DNA of 64,000 nt from Mycolicibacter virginiensis (GTDB lineage: Bacteria > Actinomycetota > Actinomycetes > Mycobacteriales > Mycobacteriaceae): positions 2,418,001 to 2,482,000 of the forward strand of contig NZ_CP092430.2 in the NCBI RefSeq assembly GCF_022374935.2. Reading direction: 5' to 3'. This document shows positions 53,067-63,412 of the stretch, in pieces (the stretch's first letter is position 1; every line of letters starts with the position of its first letter). The notes beneath the pieces are model-generated. The model ran no database searches and had not been told where the DNA came from. It saw only the letters and a program-made list of their open reading frames with translations. The position numbers and the translations under genes were made by a program.

Positions 53067-53280
53067 CCCGTCGCCGGGTATCCCCCGTCCAGCTCTGGCC
53101 ATCGAAGTAGCGCAGCAGCTCAGGGTCAGCCGGATCGGGATACCAGTTCGGCGCCACGGGCGGTTGACCAGCGGACTTCGCCTTTGCCTTGAGCAGGAAA
53201 ACGATGCCCACCACCACTCCTGCCATCAGGGCCAGGAAGGCGATGTCGGCTATGAGGGCTCCGACGCTGTACAGCGTCAA
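53050..53280 (-). CDS. small DUF2510 membrane protein
   Basis: 76 residues from a TTG that overlaps the pafC stop (TTGA). One TM helix (IADIAFLALMAGVVVGIVFLL) is followed by the DUF2510 motif NWYPDPADPELLRYFDGQSWT. The 3' end runs into the MIRU-like repeat. Its role is unknown; the position suggests cotranscription with pafBC and tatAC. Confidence 0.8.
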   Translation of the reverse strand: MTLYSVGALIADIAFLALMAGVVVGIVFLLKAKAKSAGQPPVAPNWYPDPADPELLRYFDGQSWTGDTRRRDEPPG

Positions 53281-54242
53281 GGGCGTACCTGCTCATATAT
53301 CGCCAACGCGGCTATCGAGGCGTCACGCACCCCGGCAACCACCGATTCCGGCGCCTTGACCTGCACCTCGTCGCCCATGCCGAGCAGCAGCCGGATCAGC
53401 CACGCCTCGGAGGCGTAGGTCAACTGGGCTTCCCGCCAGCCGTCGGCCAGCTCGCCGAGCGCCTGCATCGGGTAGTACTCGAACATCCACGCCGCCGACG
53501 GCGCCACCCGCACGATGGCGACCGGCAGTGACGGGTCGGCGTCGAACAGTGAGGTGTCGGTTTCGGCTCGCCGCGCCGGCTCCGGCGGAGCTGATGGCTC
53601 GTCGAGCAGCCGGGCGCCGTCGATGCGGTCGAAGCGGAACAGCCGCACCCCCTCGGACTCGCGGCACCAGGCCTCCAGGTAACTGTGTGCGCCGATCAGC
53701 ACCACCCGGATCGGGTCCACGATCCGCTGCGACACGCTGTCTCGGGATGCCGCGTAGTAGTCGATCGCCAGCGCGCGGTGTTGCTGGACGCCGTCGCGGA
53801 CGACGTCTTGTCGGACAGAGTCGGCAGCCGACTCGTCGTGCGTGGCGGAGGTGGGCGCTGCTGGTGCCGCGGCCCCGGCGGCCTCCTCGATCTTGGCGAT
53901 CGCGCTGCGGGCAGCCCGCGGGTCGACGATGCCGGGCATGTCGACCAGGGTGCGTAAGGCCATCAGCATGGCCGTGGCCTCGCGCGAGGTCAGGCGCAGC
54001 GGCCGATCGACGCCGGCGGATTCGAACACGTCGAGGCGGTCTTCGTAGAACGTCACGTCGATCAGTTCGCCGGGCCCGTAGCCGGGCAGGCCGCACATTA
54101 CCAGCTGCTCCAGGTCGGTCTGCAGCTGGCTGAGGCTCACGCCGAGTTCGGCGGCGGCCTGTTCCTTGCTGATTCCGGGGCGAGCTTTCAGATACGGCAC
54201 CATGTTCAGCAGCCGGACCAGGCGTTTCGACAGCTGGGTCAT
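53277..54242 (-). CDS. pafC: WYL-domain transcriptional regulator PafC
   Basis: 321 residues. The winged HTH (MTQLSKRLVRLLNMVPYL, KEQAAAELGVSLSQLQTDLE) is followed by a WYL domain (HRALAIDYYAASRDSVSQRI, GAHSYLEAWCRESEGVRLFR). It acts with PafB as the DNA-damage activator that controls most of the LexA-independent response in mycobacteria. The start overlaps the pafB stop by four bases. Confidence 0.95.
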   Translation of the reverse strand: MTQLSKRLVRLLNMVPYLKARPGISKEQAAAELGVSLSQLQTDLEQLVMCGLPGYGPGELIDVTFYEDRLDVFESAGVDRPLRLTSREATAMLMALRTLVDMPGIVDPRAARSAIAKIEEAAGAAAPAAPTSATHDESAADSVRQDVVRDGVQQHRALAIDYYAASRDSVSQRIVDPIRVVLIGAHSYLEAWCRESEGVRLFRFDRIDGARLLDEPSAPPEPARRAETDTSLFDADPSLPVAIVRVAPSAAWMFEYYPMQALGELADGWREAQLTYASEAWLIRLLLGMGDEVQVKAPESVVAGVRDASIAALAIYEQVRP

Positions 54243-55234
54243 ACCGGCACCTCCCCCACGCGAGCGCTCAGGCGCGCTACCACGTCGTCGCGCAGCGACG
54301 GCGGGTCCAACACGATGGCGTCGGCGCCGTAGCCGGCGATCTCCCGGGCCAACCGGTCATGGGTGCCCATGTCGACGCCGATGACGTCGCCGTCGCGGCC
54401 GGCCAGCGCCTGACGGCTCAAGACCGTGCCGGCCCGGCGCAGCGCCACCGCGCGGCCATCGGCGACCCAGATACGTGCCTGCAGCCCGCTGGGCGCATCA
54501 CCGACCGCGTCGGCGACGATCGCGCGCAGATCGGCGGTGTCGGGTCGGGTGACGGCGTCGGCCGGCCCGATCGGCCGCACCTCCGGCGCGATCCTCGACA
54601 TCCGGAAGGTGCGTACCGCGTTGCGGTCGCGGTCGTGACCCACCAGATACCAGCGTCCGGCGTGGGTGACCACTCCCCACGGCTCGACGGTGCGGGTGAC
54701 ATACGGCTCGACCGGTGAGGGGCGGTGCCCGAACTGCACGGCCTGGCCCGCCTGGACGGCGTCCATCAACGCGCCTAGCACCGGTTCGGCCCGGTGACTT
54801 CCTGGCAGCGCCGTTGGCGGTGCCACCAGCACGTCGGCCTGGTTCGGGTCCACCTCGACACCGGCCGCATGCAGTTTGGCGACGGCGCCCTCGGCGTTGG
54901 CCCGCAACTCCGGGGACTGCCACAGCTGAACCGCGACCGCGACCGCGGCGGCCTCCTCGCGGGTCAGGTCGATGGCCGCCAAGGCGTAGGTATCGGGGTT
55001 GATCCGGTAGCCCTCGACCGTGTCGAACCCCGACACTTTGCCGGTCTCCAGTGGAATGCCCAGGTCACGCAGCTCGTTCTTGTCGCGCTCGAACATCCGC
55101 GAGAACGCGTCGTCGCTGGGGCTGTCGCCGTAGCCGACCACGGTGGTCCGGATCTTCTCGGCGGTGAGGTAGCTGCGGGTGGCCAGCAACGCGATGACGA
55201 GATTGAGGAGTCGCTCGACTTTCGCGGTCGCCAT
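54239..55234 (-). CDS. pafB: WYL-domain transcriptional regulator PafB
   Basis: 331 residues. The N-terminal HTH KVERLLNLVIALLATRSYLT is followed by a WYL region with PYVTRTVEPWGVVTHAGRWYLVGHDRDR. Heterodimer partner of PafC, sensing DNA damage. Confidence 0.95.
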   Translation of the reverse strand: MATAKVERLLNLVIALLATRSYLTAEKIRTTVVGYGDSPSDDAFSRMFERDKNELRDLGIPLETGKVSGFDTVEGYRINPDTYALAAIDLTREEAAAVAVAVQLWQSPELRANAEGAVAKLHAAGVEVDPNQADVLVAPPTALPGSHRAEPVLGALMDAVQAGQAVQFGHRPSPVEPYVTRTVEPWGVVTHAGRWYLVGHDRDRNAVRTFRMSRIAPEVRPIGPADAVTRPDTADLRAIVADAVGDAPSGLQARIWVADGRAVALRRAGTVLSRQALAGRDGDVIGVDMGTHDRLAREIAGYGADAIVLDPPSLRDDVVARLSARVGEVPV

Positions 55235-55271
55235 GACAAGACAGGATAAGGCTCGTGCGTTACGTGCTTGT

Positions 55272-55763
55272 TCAGATGTGGTTCGCCGGCGTGCATGTCA
55301 TCCCCGGGAACTCCCAGGTGCTGCACTGGTAGTCCGAGAATTCAGGGTCTTCGGCACGTGGCTCGCCAGGACGATCGGTGCGAGCCGTCATCTTGGCGCC
55401 GTAGACGCCCGGGTACAGCGGGATCAGTCGCTCGTCGTTGGGGAACCCCACCGAGAAGCTGTCGCCGTTGTGCACCGCGCGGGTCTCGGAGTAGGACAGG
55501 GTGTGCGACGGGCCGGCCAGTTCCAGCGGGGCGCCGGAGGCGGTCAGGTGCATCTGCAGGGTCAGTGACGTGCCGGGCAGATCGGTCCGGCAATCGCTGA
55601 CGTCGACGCGGCTGCCCATGTAGTCGGCCCCGTTGACCGAGTAGACGAACGGCTTGGCGACGCTGAACTGGCAGATGACGACGCTGTCGGCGTTCGCGGC
55701 CGGCGACGCGGCCAGCGCGACGCCCAGTCCGATGAGCGCGGCCAGGCCGCGGAGCCGAGTCAT
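55272..55763 (-). CDS. exported Cys-containing protein between pafA and pafB
   Basis: 163 residues. The signal peptide ALIGLGVALAASPAANA is followed by a mature domain with Cys at VVICQFSV, VSDCRTDLPG, YQCSTWEFP and MTCTPANH, probably two disulfides. It begins five bases after the pafA stop and ends 37 bases before pafB, so it is inside the pafABC transcription unit. I recall no such gene between Rv2097c and Rv2096c. The function is unknown. Confidence 0.75.
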   Translation of the reverse strand: MTRLRGLAALIGLGVALAASPAANADSVVICQFSVAKPFVYSVNGADYMGSRVDVSDCRTDLPGTSLTLQMHLTASGAPLELAGPSHTLSYSETRAVHNGDSFSVGFPNDERLIPLYPGVYGAKMTARTDRPGEPRAEDPEFSDYQCSTWEFPGMTCTPANHI

Positions 55764-55768
55764 CGCCG

Positions 55769-57127
55769 CTACATGCTGGCGATCAGGCGCTTGACCCGCT
55801 CGTCGACCGACCGGAAGGGGTCCTTGCACAGCACGGTGCGCTGGGCCTGGTCGTTGAGCTTGAGGTGCACCCAGTCGACGGTGAAGTCGCGCCCTGCTGC
55901 CTGTGCGGCACTGATGAATTCGCCGCGGAGCTTGGCGCGGGTGGTCTGCGGCGGGGTGTCGACGGCCTCGTCGACGTCCTCGTCGGTGGTGACGCGGGTG
56001 GCCAATCCCTTGCGCTGCAGCAGATCGAACACCCCGCGCCCGCGCTTGATGTCGTGATAGGCCAGGTCCAGCTGGGCGATCTTGGGATCCGAGAGCTCCA
56101 TGTTGTAGCGATCCTGGTAGCGCTGGAACAGCTTTCGCTTGATCACCCAATCGATCTCGGTGTCCACCTTGGCGAAGTCCTGGGTTTCCACGGCGTCGAG
56201 CTGGCGGCCCCACAAATCGATGACCTGCTCAAGCTGGGGGTTGCTGGCCCGGGTCTGCACGTACTCCACGGCCCGCCCGTAGTACTCGCGCTGAATGTCG
56301 AGGGCACCGGCTTGGCGTCCGCCGGCTAGGCGCACCGGGCGCCGGCCGGTGACGTCGTGGCTGACTTCGCGGATCGCCCGGATCGGGTTGTCCAGCGAGA
56401 AGTCCCGGAAGGACACCCCGGCCTCGATCATCTCCAGCACCAGCGCCGCGCTGCCCACCTTGAGCAGGGTCGTGGTCTCGGACATGTTGGAGTCGCCGAC
56501 GATGACGTGCAAGCGCCGGTACTTCTCGGCGTCGGCGTGCGGTTCGTCGCGGGTGTTGATGATCGGCCGCGACCGGGTGGTGGCGCTCGAGACGCCTTCC
56601 CAGATGTGCTCGGCACGCTGGGACAGGCAGAACGTGGCGGCTTTGGGGGTCTGCAGCACCTTCCCGGCGCCGCAGATCAGCTGGCGGGTTACCAGGAACG
56701 GCAACAGCACGTCGGAGATCCGGGAGAACTCCCCGGCCCGCACGATCAGGTAGTTCTCGTGGCAGCCGTAGGAGTTGCCGGCCGAATCGGTGTTGTTCTT
56801 GAACAGGTAGATGTCGCCGCCGATGCCCTCGTCGGCCAGCCGCTGCTCGGCGTCGATCAGCAGGTCTTCGAGGACGCGTTCACCCGCCCGGTCGTGGGTG
56901 ACCAGCTGAATCAGGTTGTCGCACTCGGCGGTGGCGTACTCGGGGTGACTGCCCACATCCAGATACAACCGAGCGCCGTTGCGCAGGAACACATTCGAGC
57001 TACGCCCCCACGACACCACCCGGCGGAACAGATAGCGCGCCACCTCGTCGGGCGACAACCTCCGATGACCGTGGAAGGTGCAGGTGACACCGAACTCAGT
57101 CTCAATGCCCATGATTCTGCGCTGCAC
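55769..57127 (-). CDS. pafA: Pup--protein ligase PafA
   Basis: 452 residues from GTG, the same length as in M. tuberculosis. [14 protein letters not shown] opens the glutamine-synthetase-like fold. [38 protein letters not shown] and [12 protein letters not shown] are the active-site blocks. It ligates the C-terminal Glu of Pup to target lysines for proteasomal degradation. Confidence 0.97.
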
Positions 57128-57188
57128 GTCATCGAGCGTACTGGTTGAACCAGCGCAACGGGGCTCAGCGCCGCTGGTGGCGTGGCGG

Positions 57189-57812
57189 TCAGGCCGGTGG
57201 GTTGACCGGGGCCTCGACGTTTTCCAGCACCACTTCGGCGACCTGGCGCATGGTGGTCCGCTTATCCATGGCCGCGCGCTGAATCCACTTGAAGGCCTCG
57301 GGTTCGGTGAAGCCGTGCACGGTCTGCAGCACGCCCTTGGCCCGCTCCACGAGCTTGCGGGTTTCCAGCTGGTCGGTCAGGTTGCTGACCTCGCGCTCCA
57401 AGGCGGTGATCTCGTCGGCCCGGCTGAGCGCCAATTCGATGGCCGGGACCAGGTCACCGGCGGTGAACGGCTTGACCAGGTAGGCCATCGCCCCCGCGTC
57501 CCGGGCGCGTTCGACCAGGTCGCGCTGGCTGAACGCGGTCAGGATGACGATCGGTGCGATCCGCTTGGCGGCGATCTCCGAGGCTGCGTCGATGCCGTCG
57601 CGGCGCGGCATCTTCACGTCGAGGATCACCAGGTCCGGGCGCAGCAGTTCGGCCAGCTCGACGGCTTCTTGGCCGTCGCCGGCCTCGCCCACCACTTCAT
57701 AGCCTTCTTCGCGCAGCATCTCGGCGAGATCCAGCCGGATCAGCGCTTCATCCTCGGCGATCAGCACCCGCCGGGCTGGGCGTGGGCTGCTGTCGGACGT
57801 GGGCTCGGTCAT
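57189..57812 (-). CDS. pdtaR: ANTAR-domain response regulator PdtaR
   Basis: 207 residues. The receiver domain has acidic pocket AEDEALI and phospho-acceptor Asp65 ([13 protein letters not shown]). The C-terminal ANTAR RNA-binding domain has [15 protein letters not shown] and [20 protein letters not shown]. It matches Rv1626. ANTAR proteins bind dual hexaloop antiterminators. The cognate kinase is not in the window. Confidence 0.93.
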
Positions 57813-57892
57813 CCCCCTATTCTGTCGTGGCTGCCGGCTGGGGCAACCCCGAGGGGCATCGTCTAAGGTAGGAAGCCGCGCGTCAGCGCAGG

Positions 57893-57969
57893 GCCCTCGT
57901 ATCCCAACTGGCAGAGGAAACGGATTCAAAACCCGTGCAGTGTGAGTTCGAATCTCACCGAGGGCACCA
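57893..57969 (+). tRNA. tRNA with CAA anticodon (Leu by anticodon), short variable loop
   Basis: 77 bases including CCA. The acceptor GCCCTCG pairs with CGAGGGC, the T-arm GTGAG/CTCAC is perfect with TTCGAAT loop, and the D-arm TCC/GGA encloses a GG-containing loop. The anticodon loop is TTCAAAA (CAA). Unusual points are an A-C mismatch closing the anticodon stem and a 5-base variable loop, whereas Leu tRNAs normally have a long variable arm. Its 3' end is the attachment site of the island. Confidence 0.8.
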
Positions 57970-57970
57970 C
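57943..57970. repeat. att-like direct repeat, left (tRNA 3' end)
   Basis: The 28 bases TGAGTTCGAATCTCACCGAG plus GGCACCAC cover the T-arm, acceptor 3' strand and CCA. A copy with one mismatch (G57964 to C) lies at 63203. tRNA 3' ends are the classic target of tyrosine integrases. Confidence 0.88.
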
Positions 57971-58171
57971 GAATAGGCAGTTCAGAGCGATCAAAAGCCC
58001 AACGCGACAGATCGCACTCAGTCAGCGGGGCCCTAGAATGTTGTCTTGCAAAAGCGCAGCTCAAGGGATCGCGCTCGCGTAGAGAATCGGTGGCACCAGC
58101 CCCGTCGTAGGAGCGACGAGCCCTGTACCGGCGTTGAGGGCGAGACCAAAGCTCAGCAGCGCCGCCCGGTG

Positions 58172-58420
58172 CCTATCTTGACGGCGGAACGTCTCGAGGA
58201 ACTGTGACGAGCGACGGCCCGGACGAGCCTGTGTTTCTCGGCCCCGACGGCGGCGCTATGACGGTCAGGTGCTTCCGGATCACGTTCGACAAGGCTGTCG
58301 AAAAGCTCGGGTTGACCGGCCCTGACTCCCCACGCCTTCCACACCTTGCGGCATACGGCCGGGTCGTTGGCACTGGCGTCTGGCGCTTCGATCGCGACCG
58401 GGTATGAGACGTCCAACTTG
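58172..58420 (+). pseudogene. tyrosine recombinase/integrase remnant, frameshifted
   Basis: Three pieces of the catalytic domain are in three frames: PILTAERLEEL (58172-58204), TSDGPDEPVFLGPDGGAM then FDKAVEKLGLTG (58207-58320), and LTPHAFHTLRHTAGSLALAS (58322 on). The HxLRHTA box of mycobacteriophage-type integrases is recognisable but disrupted by an insertion of three codons and flanked by two frameshifts. The N-terminal and final Tyr regions are missing. Confidence 0.8.
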
Positions 58421-58534
58421 ATGCGCTTTCAGCTCGTCACGGTTCCGGGCCGCTGTATGTGTCCGACTCGCGGACGCCACGACTGAGGCGTCGGAGGGTC
58501 CATAGTTCGTCACTCGCGTACGCGACTCGCATGA

Positions 58535-61500
58535 TCATTGCCAGCCGCGATCGTGAAGTATGAGCGCGCGTTCAGCTGCCCAGATCTCCTGACGCAAAGA
58601 ATCATCGATGAGGTCAAGGGCACGCGACCGTACAGCGCCGGTGGCGTCGGTGTGGATCCGCATCAGAATCTGGACGAGCAGGTCGTCGCGGCGGTAGTGC
58701 GGTGATCCCGAATCGGAAGCGAAGGAGGCAAGCGCACGCTCGCAGATCACCAGCGCGAGATCCGTTGCGGCGCTCGTGGCCTCGGCTTGCGCCTCGAGGA
58801 GCTCATTCCAACGCTTTGCCGCGGCCCGGCTCTCGACTAGGCATACAACGACGTCGGCGAAATCGTTCAGCTGGGTTCCGGAGAAGGTGCCCACGACCTC
58901 GGCCGCGGCGTCGCGAACCGCTTGGGAAGTGTCGTCGAACAGCCTTGTCAGTGCTGCTGCACACTGGTCACGAAACGGCGAGGTCGCGAGGTTCGCGGCA
59001 TACACCCGCGCCGCGCCAAGCCTCTGTGGCTCCGCACCTTCGAGGCAAGTCGCGGCGAGTGCGGTTGCGTCGTCGTCGACCAGCGCGGCCGAGGTCGCCA
59101 GCGCAGCCCCGTGCTGTTGCACCTCTTCGAGCTCGGAATACATCATCCGCTCCACAAGGGACCGCAGGCGCGCGAAGTCCACCTCGATCCGGGACTGGAC
59201 CAGTTGTTGGACGTAGCGGGTGGCTAGCAAGTGGTCGGGGCCATCTTCGGTGAGGCGATCTAAGGCATCGAGCGCCGCGTTGGGGTCCCACCGCGACCAA
59301 ACGAGCAGGATCTGCGCCGCCAAGGCACGCACCCCGGGGTTACCGTCACCGACGAGCCTCGCTACGGCCGGTGCGAGCGGGGCGACGTTGCGCGGGTCGC
59401 GGGCGATCAAATGGGTGATGACTTCGGTGATGGCGCCGCGCACCGAGTTGAGGCCTTGATACAGCAGCGACTCGTCGATCGTGTCGGCCTGCGGGAGCGC
59501 TGAGTCGTTGGCCGGATCCGGGTGGTTGGCGTACCACGCAATCAGCTCGGCCATCACTTTAGAGACTGGCCCCTCCGCATGCAGCAGGGGACGTGCGATG
59601 TCCATCCCGCACGGACGATTTGGGAGCCGGTGGCACCGCTGTATCAGTGCCTCGATCAGCTCGGTCGACAGCCAGTCGGCACTGTTGGCCACTCCGCGAA
59701 GGATCGAGGTGAAGTACCGGGTGTCGGTGGCGTCGGGCAATTCGATGGCCAGACGGGCGAACCGCTGCGGGTCGGCCTGGGCATTGGTCTCGAGTTGACT
59801 GGCGAGTTGCCTTATTCCGCCGATGGGAGGACCGTCTCCGCGAAACTGGATGTCTTCGTCCGCCGCATAGCGCTCGATGGCGCCGCGCCACTGCGCGTCC
59901 GACATCCTTTCAGCAGCTTCGGCAACGATGGGCGATCGAACGAAGCCCCCGTTAATGCCGCTCGGTACCGGCGCGTCGTCGCAGCCGAACTTGCGCTGCC
60001 ACTCGGCAAGCCGCTGCTCCATCGCGGGCGTGCGGCGTTCAACGGCGACGCCGCCCAGCAGGGTGAACTGCGTGAACCCATGCCCGTAACGGCCTCGCGC
60101 GGTGCGCTCGTAAGGCGGATAGCACGCGAGCAGTGCCGACTCAAGTTCTGCCAGCGCGTGGTCCCCGGCGTGGGGGGTAACCGCTTCAAGCAGCCTCCTT
60201 GTGCCCCACGCCTGACCGTTGGACCAGCCAACGTCCAACCAATCAGTGTGGGCGGTCAATGCGTGGACGGCGTCGTCGGCGAAGTGCTGCGGGTTGGCAG
60301 CGAAACCCTCGAAGAGGACTGCCACGATCGTCTCCGATTTCGTCGCCCAGACTTGGTCGACCACGGCGGCGAACCGGCCCGGGTCATCACGAGCGCAGGT
60401 GGCAAAGGCGACTTCGGCGCCCCCGAGGAGCTCATCGACGAAGCTGTCCGATCCGCCCTGTAGGTGCCGAAACGCCCAGATCCGATCCGGCCTCAACCGG
60501 CCCTCCCGTTGATCGAGCAGGGACGCCTCGACCAGGCGCAGGAAAGTTGGCCATACATGGTCGAGGAACGACGCGGACGCGGTCGCAGCAGTGCGGACGT
60601 AGTCGCCAAGTGCCAGCCGGTTCGGGATGAGGTTGGCACCAGGCTCGAGCGGACTGGGCAGGCCGGCGGCGGTCGCCGCCACCATGCGCTGCGCGAGGTA
60701 GTGGCCCAGTAGTTCGTTGGCCCGGTGCGGATTGTCGGTGGCCAGACTAAGCGTTGGGTAACGCAGTTCACCCGTGTAGACCTCGGCGGCCAGCGCTCCC
60801 GAATCGACGAGCCGAAGCAACAACTCGAAGGCGGCGCGATGCGTGGCGAGGTCCGCGTGCGCCAGTACCCAAATTACATGCGGTGTCCAGGAATCGGATT
60901 CGTCCAGACGTGGCGTCAACAGCTGCAAGGCTCGGTCGAGGAACCGTCCGTTGCCGCCGACCAGCGCTGTGAGCGCCCGGCGGATTAGCACGGGGTCATC
61001 GCTATTCAAAGAGGTTTCGAAGTAGCCGAGTCCGTCAAGATCGGCGAACCAGGCGGGCGCCGCAGCCGTGCGCCAAGCACGGCTGTGCAGCGGCGACGAC
61101 GGATCGTCCAGGTGCGGGCGAAGTAGTTCTACTTCGGCTGCGTTCGGGGCCACTTGCGACAGCCAGGCGAGCACGACGTCGCGCAAGTGGAATCGGACGC
61201 CAGCATCAGTGAGCAGGTATTTCAGATCCGAGAGGTACTCGTCGGTCCGATCGCGGTTGTACGCGAGCACTTGTCGGACCTGTGCGCGCCGGAACAGATC
61301 CTGGTCGTCGGCGAGGAGGTCCCCGATCGTGTAGCCGCGAGCACAGAATCGTCGCGCGAACACGTAGTCGAAGAAGCTCTCGTGGAAGAACGCGACGTGG
61401 TCGCCGTCGCGGTTGAGCACGCGGCTCGAGATCAGCTCGGTCAGGTCGGGCCGCCATTCGTCGGCGATATCTACCGGAGCGCGCAACAGCTGGTGGCCGC

Positions 61501-63010
61501 TCATGTAGTCGACTAAGACGTCGAGCACCTGGGTCCACGCCGGAGGACGGCCGAGCCGTTGGTGTATCTCATCTCGCTTTGCGTCCCAGAACGCGCGGAA
61601 CAGGTCGTTGGCGTTCGCGATGCTCAGTTCGGATGACTGCGCCAGCAAGGTCGGTGCAATCTCAGCAAGCAGGGCCAGGTGGAGTGGGAGAGCCAGGATC
61701 TCCTTATGCGCTCGGCTCAACCGGTCGCCGTCGAATCCGAGGGCCGCGGTCGTGGCCAGCACCTGGGATTCGGTGAACGTGCCGACGGTCAGCACCGTGG
61801 CTTCGCCGGCCGCCACCACCCGGCGTAGCCGGGCGTCATTAGTCCTGTCGAAGGTACGACACGACAGCACAATTCGTAGATTCGGCGTCGCGGCGGCTTC
61901 GGTGATCATCTGCTGGACACAGTCAAGGAACTGGGGGCTGCGTCCCGATGTGGCGCTGACGATATCGAGCTGGTCGACAACGAGCACGCTCAATGCGCTC
62001 TTCGCGTGGGCGGCGAGCGTCACCACCGGCGATGCAGGAAGGTCTAGTTCGTCGCCGACGTCGCCGGGGCGGCGCGTGGGGCTCACCCGGTCGAGACGAA
62101 GTGCCAGGTGGGGAATGCGGTCATCCTCCAAATCCCGCATGAATTGCAGGAGTACGTCGCTCTTCCCGGTACCTGCGGCGCCGTCGACGAGCACGATACG
62201 GTGCGATTCGACGAGTTCGCGAAGCTGCTGAGCTTCGGTACGCACGATCAGTTGACCGCCGATCAAGGTCTGCTCTCGCGAGGCGCGGAAGCGGGAGTTG
62301 GCGGCGTCGACTTTGACCGCCAGGCCGTGTCCCCTGCGCCACAAATTCGGTTCGTAGCGCTTGCCGCGTAACTCACGCCACAGGTCTGCGGCGGTCAGGT
62401 ACTCGCCGGCGTGATCGCGCACAAGCTCGGTCATCACCGCGACCACGTGGTCGAGGTCGCCGGTCAACGCCACTTCGGCTTGCAACCGAACCATCGCCTT
62501 CAGTTGGTCGTCGCCGATCGTGGCGACTTCAATGCGGCGCAGCGCGCTGAACGCGACTTCAGCACCAGGGTCGCCCCAGAGCTTGCACAGCTTGTCGAAC
62601 TTGGCCCTCCATTCAGGCGCCTTCAGGTAGACGTCGACGAACTGCTCCGCCGACGCCGCGAGGCGGGCCCGGTCGGCCAACTCACCGAGCGCGTCGGTGG
62701 CGTGGGTGGACGCGAAAACGCACTGGGCCCGAGGGTCGCGCAACTTTGTGAAGAACGTGCTGAGCACCCCGGCAGACTCGAGTGCCGTCAGATTCCACAC
62801 ACCTTCGCGGGTGCGTTGCCGCTTGCACTGGTGGTAGACATCGCGGTCGGAGTACCGCAACACGAACTCGACTCCGTCGTCGCCGGGTCCCGACGGCTCG
62901 AGGTCGATCGCCTCGGCCACGTCGTCGAGCACGTCGAACACGTACCGGGCGGTCCAGCGGTCCTCAAAACGATTGCCCAGCTTGTCGGAGAGCCCGCCCG
63001 GCATCGGCAT
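58535..63010 (-). CDS. predicted antiphage STAND NTPase with N-terminal PD-(D/E)xK-like nuclease (Avs-like)
   Basis: 1491 residues. Residues 1-130: nuclease-like domain, Glu16 (LGNRFEDRW), Asp45/Glu48 (GDDGVEFVL), Gln61-x-Lys63 (YHQCKRQ), as in Cap4/Mrr-type effectors. 250-560: P-loop NTPase, Walker A GAAGTGKS (277-284), Walker B SVLVVDQLD (Asp346, Asp349), a sensor strand IVLSCR, a GxP-like LALPLHLALL and the winged-helix motif FFHESFFDYVFARRF (541-555) typical of NACHT/STAND proteins. 560-1491: helical repeats, with HEAT-like units (NPGVRALAAQILLVW, SQAVRDAAAEVVGTF) in the last 290. Inferred mechanism: the C-terminus senses a phage protein, the NTPase oligomerises and the nuclease cuts DNA. 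The frame is intact. A second ATG is two codons in. Confidence 0.85.
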   Translation of the reverse strand: MPMPGGLSDKLGNRFEDRWTARYVFDVLDDVAEAIDLEPSGPGDDGVEFVLRYSDRDVYHQCKRQRTREGVWNLTALESAGVLSTFFTKLRDPRAQCVFASTHATDALGELADRARLAASAEQFVDVYLKAPEWRAKFDKLCKLWGDPGAEVAFSALRRIEVATIGDDQLKAMVRLQAEVALTGDLDHVVAVMTELVRDHAGEYLTAADLWRELRGKRYEPNLWRRGHGLAVKVDAANSRFRASREQTLIGGQLIVRTEAQQLRELVESHRIVLVDGAAGTGKSDVLLQFMRDLEDDRIPHLALRLDRVSPTRRPGDVGDELDLPASPVVTLAAHAKSALSVLVVDQLDIVSATSGRSPQFLDCVQQMITEAAATPNLRIVLSCRTFDRTNDARLRRVVAAGEATVLTVGTFTESQVLATTAALGFDGDRLSRAHKEILALPLHLALLAEIAPTLLAQSSELSIANANDLFRAFWDAKRDEIHQRLGRPPAWTQVLDVLVDYMSGHQLLRAPVDIADEWRPDLTELISSRVLNRDGDHVAFFHESFFDYVFARRFCARGYTIGDLLADDQDLFRRAQVRQVLAYNRDRTDEYLSDLKYLLTDAGVRFHLRDVVLAWLSQVAPNAAEVELLRPHLDDPSSPLHSRAWRTAAAPAWFADLDGLGYFETSLNSDDPVLIRRALTALVGGNGRFLDRALQLLTPRLDESDSWTPHVIWVLAHADLATHRAAFELLLRLVDSGALAAEVYTGELRYPTLSLATDNPHRANELLGHYLAQRMVAATAAGLPSPLEPGANLIPNRLALGDYVRTAATASASFLDHVWPTFLRLVEASLLDQREGRLRPDRIWAFRHLQGGSDSFVDELLGGAEVAFATCARDDPGRFAAVVDQVWATKSETIVAVLFEGFAANPQHFADDAVHALTAHTDWLDVGWSNGQAWGTRRLLEAVTPHAGDHALAELESALLACYPPYERTARGRYGHGFTQFTLLGGVAVERRTPAMEQRLAEWQRKFGCDDAPVPSGINGGFVRSPIVAEAAERMSDAQWRGAIERYAADEDIQFRGDGPPIGGIRQLASQLETNAQADPQRFARLAIELPDATDTRYFTSILRGVANSADWLSTELIEALIQRCHRLPNRPCGMDIARPLLHAEGPVSKVMAELIAWYANHPDPANDSALPQADTIDESLLYQGLNSVRGAITEVITHLIARDPRNVAPLAPAVARLVGDGNPGVRALAAQILLVWSRWDPNAALDALDRLTEDGPDHLLATRYVQQLVQSRIEVDFARLRSLVERMMYSELEEVQQHGAALATSAALVDDDATALAATCLEGAEPQRLGAARVYAANLATSPFRDQCAAALTRLFDDTSQAVRDAAAEVVGTFSGTQLNDFADVVVCLVESRAAAKRWNELLEAQAEATSAATDLALVICERALASFASDSGSPHYRRDDLLVQILMRIHTDATGAVRSRALDLIDDSLRQEIWAAERALILHDRGWQ

Positions 63011-63412
63011 GTGCTCAGTGTACGGAGGAGCGGTTGTGCGTCTGCGACACCAACGGGCCCGACGTGGGTTTGCTCGCTGCGGGTTCCGTCGTCGCGCAGA
63101 CCCGACGGGTCAGCTCAGCCGTTCGTTGTCCTTTGGGTCGCGTAGCCGGCGCGCGATCTAGTCCAGCAGGAGCTGAGCGGACGCTCGACCAGTGCTCCGG
63201 GATGAGTTCGAATCTCACCGAGGCCACCACAAACGTCACGTCGACGCCGCCTGTCTGAACAGCGCAACCGCGCATCTCGATTTGCTATAGCGCGCGCTTT
63301 GCTCACGGACGGCTCCTGGCCACGAGCCCCGAACGATTCGCCATTGTCGCCCCTACCGACACCGCCGAACCTAAACTCGGGCACGCCGCGACTGGGCAGC
63401 CGAGGAGGGCCA
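63011..63412. other. intergenic region holding the right att-like repeat
   Basis: 402 bases between the STAND gene start and the next gene. Apart from the att copy at 63203-63230 I see no supported gene, RNA or terminator. A GGAGGAG at about 63023 is followed by a TTG frame of unconvincing composition. The promoter of the STAND gene must lie in its left part, but no clear -10/-35 pair stands out. Confidence 0.6.
63203..63230. repeat. att-like direct repeat, right
   Basis: Copy of the tRNA 3' end, 27 of 28 bases identical to 57943-57970. The upstream part of the tRNA is not present here, as expected for the distal end of an integrated element. Confidence 0.88.

Follow-up and report, generated by a model that had tools for sequence, protein, structure and literature searches.

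Bacterial STAND immune receptors follow a tripartite plan, according to excerpts of PMC12931631. In Avs3 and Avs4 of the AVAST systems (8dgc and 8dgf), this plan is realized as an effector nuclease, a STAND module, and C-terminal repeats. Single proteins that join a PD-(D/E)xK DNase to a NACHT module are represented by bNACHT25 and bNACHT32 (clade 6), and excerpts of PMC12169576 state that DNA is degraded on infection by these nuclease-NACHT proteins. Here, a gene with the same order of parts is described from Mycolicibacter virginiensis. It lies at 58535..63010 on the minus strand of a 64,000-nucleotide stretch (NZ_CP092430.2, positions 2,418,001 to 2,482,000), referred to as the window, whose numbering is used throughout, and it encodes a single protein of 1491 amino acids. 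An earlier note, made from the letters of the window alone, had put this gene forward as an undescribed antiphage system, and its coordinates and motifs were correct. We regard the product as very probably a horizontally acquired, single-protein, NLR-like immune receptor, in which phage sensed by a C-terminal solenoid would set an N-terminal nuclease to act on DNA.

Predicted architecture and conservation of the probable receptor

The open reading frame (ORF) starts with ATG, and its 1491 codons are intact in a 4.98-Mb single-contig genome. The gene is supported by the frame itself, by homologues, and by a third-codon-position bias relative to the homologue of genome G155; because synonymous divergence (dS) was saturated against relative L080, codon positions alone were used. 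Three parts were predicted. Fold searches and alignment suggested that residues 7 to 218 (62357..62992, minus strand) form a PD-(D/E)xK nuclease of the Cap4/DUF4297 fold, with the catalytic acids and a QxK motif present (E16, E38, E48, and residues 61 to 63), while Pfam listed no nuclease family for it. Residues 226 to 640 (61091..62335, minus strand) were assigned to a NACHT-type STAND module with Walker A at residues 277 to 284, Walker B at 341 to 349, R385, and the winged-helix motif FFHESFFDY at 541 to 549, and the modeled structure agreed with the NBD-HD1-WHD-HD2 fold of NACHT-like STAND NTPases. The remainder, residues 641 to 1491 (58538..61090, minus strand), was predicted to be a helical solenoid that likely serves as the sensor. 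It appeared HEAT/ARM-like over the last ~470 residues: the fold matches listed for residues ~1022 to 1489 were mostly HEAT/ARM proteins, and residues 641 to 1020 were barely covered.

A scan of a genome collection yielded 77 loci encoding relatives, with 25 to 38% identity in the best segment; in 69 of the 77 the match ran from residue 5 or earlier to at least residue 1400. P-loop residues G280, G282, and K283, as well as D349 and R385, were kept in 61 of 61 alignment rows, and D346 was kept in 60. The winged-helix histidine, H543, was likewise present in all 61 rows, a count qualified by the seeded search from which the rows came; it was also retained in L080, L151, and L152, relatives found without seeds. 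A histidine in an F-x-H-like winged-helix motif is part of the NACHT definition. Alignment A1 omits 17 of the 77 loci, namely those with broken or truncated frames (L006, L007, L008, L009, L011, L038, L057, L069, L073, and L075), near-copies or further Streptomyces loci (L019, L033, L042, L044, and L048), and, by choice, L027 and L068; A2 and A3 draw on 59 of the 61 rows (minus L005 and L063). Predicted folds and conserved motif residues bear out the nuclease-STAND-repeat order put forward in the earlier note, and the Walker motifs, R385, H543, and the predicted four-part fold bear out its NACHT-like switch.

From this nuclease-switch-sensor anatomy we infer the mechanism of a STAND immune receptor, with a trigger, an oligomer, DNA cleavage, and an antiphage effect. 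At rest, by analogy with eukaryotic NACHT proteins, the NACHT module would be closed with ADP, with H543 near the nucleotide. The HEAT-like solenoid would bind either a conserved part of a phage entering the cell or a host protein that the phage has changed; through nucleotide exchange and oligomerization, the Cap4-like nucleases at the N-termini would then be drawn together and would cleave DNA of any sequence, halting phage production, probably at the cell's cost.

Distribution, neighbors, and descent of the family

The family is widespread yet rare, as defense genes are, and is not a core gene; this follows from counts in the genus, the phylum, and the collection. The hosts of the 77 loci were cyanobacteria, actinobacteria, Chloroflexi, planctomycetes, proteobacteria, and others. 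Within the genus, 3 of 297 genomes carried the gene, the window's own counted, and the homologues are therefore not the core housekeeping genes that the earlier note had named as a finding against its proposal. The closest relative in the genus, that of G155, was 53% identical over residues 1 to 1489. At the level of the phylum, a profile of residues 1 to 640 (E ≤ 1e-30) matched 6 of 396 genomes, including the window's own and two with partial matches, and in the phylum of a cyanobacterial center 4 of 292 genomes matched at E ≤ 1e-30, including the center, whose copy is split. The family gene was the only strong match in 32 relatives' genomes, the others being weak (E 5.7e-5 to 9.6e-4), with the exception of one copy split into two pieces.

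Enrichment of defense genes around homologues, a check that the earlier note had proposed, was examined in 32 genomes with a simple longest-ORF caller. At 1e-15, 165 PADLOC models were matched by 114 adjoining ORFs (none from L026) versus 17 by 99 control ORFs taken from the same genomes. Adjoining the family gene were Gabija, a type I specificity subunit, and candidate defense genes; wider neighbor sets at 1e-8 (213 ORFs, omitting L042, L044, L019, L084, L085, and ORFs of <110 or >900 amino acids) also contained methyltransferases, a restriction enzyme, and TIR proteins. No conserved partner gene was found among 1,017 neighbor ORFs of 79 loci (the 77 from the scan plus two genus relatives): no cluster occurred in more than 7 loci (blastp, 1e-10), and the largest was from Streptomyces only. 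On a Sinorhizobium numidicum plasmid, the family gene lies beside a tyrosine recombinase gene and a ubiquitin-like cluster of multiubiquitin, ThiF, and DUF6527 genes (L156:4857-6878).

A maximum-likelihood tree (64 rows, first ~1,080 residues, quick search without bootstrap) assigned the window protein and its G155 counterpart to a ten-member group with a Shimodaira-Hasegawa-like approximate likelihood ratio test (SH-aLRT) support of 99. The other members were five cyanobacterial proteins, two from Rubrobacteraceae, and one from Chloroflexi, and 22 other actinobacterial proteins clustered elsewhere (support, 100). The Rubrobacteraceae proteins, the best-matching named ones, were entered by their intact N-terminal frames; a tree without these two, also quick and without bootstrap, agreed, with a group support of 92, and the protein of a third genus carrier, G239, is in neither tree. 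Together with the island described below, the tree suggests that the gene was acquired from a source other than its main actinobacterial lineage, with the caveat that some of the nearest proteins are from Rubrobacteraceae, which also belong to Actinomycetota.

Variation in the family was also noted. L152:1378-3954 encodes a relative with a different N-terminus holding a QxK stretch and with the winged-helix motif FLHQTFFDY; effectors may have been swapped here on a shared STAND core. A Nostoc plasmid carries a related STAND core within a protein annotated as SEFIR.

A tRNA-targeted island carries the putative receptor gene

The locus is a tRNA-targeted genomic island of 5.3 kb, marked by a repeated tRNA 3' end and by a site that is island-free in relatives. 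The integration site is tRNA-Leu(CAA) (57893..57969, plus strand), whose last 26 bases form an attachment (att) repeat (57944..57969, plus strand) that recurs with one mismatch (25 of 26 bases alike) at the far end of the island (63204..63229, plus strand). In relative G022, both flanks are present (94% and 89% identical) and are separated by 451 bases of different DNA; relative G016 likewise lacks the island and its gene. The G022 DNA at this tRNA-Leu (L087:2294-2744) holds a small ORF, and the site may be a hotspot.

Between the att repeats lie the receptor gene and two short pieces in different frames (58207-58450). Among 50,697 phage records, the first (58207..58320, plus strand) matched only two, both of Streptomyces phage VWB, at its integrase (E 0.03). 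The second (58319..58450, plus strand) has an LRHT motif, which we take to be typical of tyrosine recombinases, and weakly matched (E 0.008, small set) a neighbor ORF that itself resembles integrases; it had no match in phages or plasmids. Neither piece matched Pfam, and together they may be the remnant of a tyrosine recombinase. An integrase is present at most in pieces. The receptor gene is the only intact cargo of the island, much as the earlier note had supposed. To the left (53277-57866) are two WYL-type regulators, a Pup-ligase-like protein, and an ANTAR-type response regulator, presumably ordinary core genes.

A comparable setting was found at other loci. In the two other genus carriers, G239 and G155, an integrase ORF lies 4 to 5 kb from the receptor gene (Pfam Phage_integrase at 1.7e-18 and, below the cut-off, 3.3e-5, respectively), and in G239 39 bases of tRNA-Met are repeated beyond the receptor gene. 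Between integrase and receptor, the G239 island also encodes a 596-amino-acid protein (L085:4742-6532) with no Pfam match; a D-x(n)-QxK-like stretch seen by eye near its start makes it possibly another defense nuclease. A tRNA was located within 1.2 kb of the gene in 11 of the 79 loci, with its 3' end towards the gene in 11 of 11, and tRNAs numbered 11 in 177 kb near the gene, 11 in 752 kb of flank farther out, and a single one in 256 kb of control stretches; the loci are not all independent. A 5.1-kb Schumannella island (L055:9408-14579) combines tRNA-Ser with an exact 26-bp repeat of its 3' end, and the receptor gene is its only large ORF among those called; an integrase remnant suspected there by eye had no match and is not claimed. 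Flanking att repeats were rejected as a general rule: in the 69 loci whose flanks were long enough, the gene lay between exact direct repeats of at least 18 bases in only 3, of which L069 is a run of N, leaving L055 and L071 (2 of 69), and 1 of 32 control stretches also had an exact repeat (21 bases).

Alternative readings and relation to known systems

Several observations weigh against an immune receptor of this type. PADLOC 2023 had no confident model for the protein (best E 0.0012). Its Pfam NACHT score was 16.8 bits versus a gathering cut-off of 26.7, a detection aid rather than a definition, which the distant relative L160 exceeds (28.8 bits) and for which L152 was not among the matches listed; scores for nSTAND1 and HEAT were also below their Pfam cut-offs. 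Its Walker B, DQLDI, is without the second acid that is common among NACHT proteins. The neighborhood counts are of PADLOC models, not proteins, one GajA/GajB pair filling most of the 25 rows listed out of 165, and control ORFs also matched PDC-S02, RtcR, mad3, BrxH, SngC, MkoA, DpdF, PD-T4-6, PsyrT, and mad6, with mad3 matched in both sets (neighbors, 2; control, 1). The Rhizobium phaseoli copy is among metabolic genes.

The same receptor could instead defend against plasmids, integrative elements, or a competing island, as an element-borne guard against incoming DNA or competitors. Carriage of the gene on islands and partial matches in 7 plasmid records are consistent with such a role, as are the absence of any match to the family in the 50,697 phage records and the confirmation of 0 of 115 pattern matches in viral contigs. 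However, the neighbors include phage-defense genes (Gabija, type I specificity subunit, methyltransferases, and restriction enzyme), and same-plan receptors with known triggers respond to phage proteins, according to excerpts of PMC12931631 and PMC12169576; we consider a guard of this kind improbable. That the island is immobile, its integrase broken or lost, and that the gene persists as a functionless, decaying passenger is very unlikely: the integrase-like pieces and the lack of a sigma-70-like promoter in 57900-63400, in a scan that covers mycobacterial promoters poorly, would fit, but the 1491-codon frame is intact, the motif residues are retained, and there is a third-codon-position bias against G155. 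Least credible is that the protein is a STAND regulator outside immunity, acting for example in development or stress and carrying a DNase domain, since patchy distribution, island carriage, and defense neighbors argue against it, although STAND NTPases also act as regulators and one homologue has a metabolic neighborhood.

The putative antiphage receptor is best placed not as a new system but within a known class of bacterial immune receptors, as a widespread and so far scarcely described branch, because a full-length homologue is in the Protein Data Bank (PDB), no confident PADLOC model exists, and a PADLOC candidate matches relatives. The label "undescribed" is not supported: the plan was already established in Avs3, Avs4, and bNACHT25, and three PDB entries (9n00, 9n01, and 9yix; "AAA family ATPase," 1523 amino acids) hold a collinear homologue. 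The family profile found it at E 2.3e-74, aligning residues 11 to 658 and 890 to 1489, with the same part order, QxK, and Walker A; identity to the window protein was ~22% over residues 271 to 631, and it has FGHQTLLD in place of FFHESFFD. It was not found by phmmer with the single window protein and was not among the matches listed in fold searches. Literature searches found no paper naming both 9N00 and 9N01 and no title or abstract start describing this nuclease-NACHT-HEAT family. Candidate PDC-M54A matched the STAND part of L002 (E 1.9e-19) and L014 (1.4e-12) over ~300 residues only and had no match in the window protein or relative L046.

If the receptor works as proposed, a HEAT-sensing branch from many phyla is added to the bacterial NLR-like receptors and extended to mycobacteria, where the receptor could influence phage susceptibility. 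Because effector, switch, and sensor share one gene, the question of the trigger is directly testable in homologues from harmless hosts. For a distant homologue, a structure has already been deposited. A bolder version, to which we give only a slim chance, holds that the family is a separate bacterial NLR lineage, with a HEAT sensor and a trigger unlike those of Avs and bNACHT, in a near-minimal att-flanked cassette, a single receptor gene at a tRNA 3' end, moved by integrases in trans; the window and Schumannella islands would then be two independent non-autonomous immune cassettes.

Among described systems, Avs3 and Avs4 gave the best Foldseek matches for the predicted structure of residues 1 to 640. 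The Avs-like order of parts proposed in the earlier note stands, whereas membership in Avs1-4 was rejected by the sequence tests run: the family profile reached Avs4 only at E 0.17 and 0.029, the window protein's four listed PADLOC families (E up to 5) included no Avs model, relative L002 matched Avs2 (7.5e-6) over 143 to 388 only, and L014 and L046 had no Avs match. The repeats appear to differ as well, being predicted as HEAT-like in the last ~470 residues here and TPR in the C-terminal sensor of Avs. The Cap4/DUF4297 nucleases of HerA-DUF4297, HamA (Hachiman), and LmuA (Lamassu) are effectors of multi-subunit systems, whereas the window protein fuses such a nuclease to its own switch and sensor. 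The C-terminus of bNACHT25 and bNACHT32 is an NCH1 domain, in contrast to the long helical solenoid predicted here. DSR2 also has HEAT repeats, and excerpts of PMC11263360 place them in the region that binds phage proteins, but its effector is a Sir2 NADase, and the likeness covers the kind of repeat alone. In overall architecture the protein resembles human NLR immune receptors: a domain predicted to cleave DNA comes first, followed by a switch like that of NLRs and an extended arm that would do the sensing.
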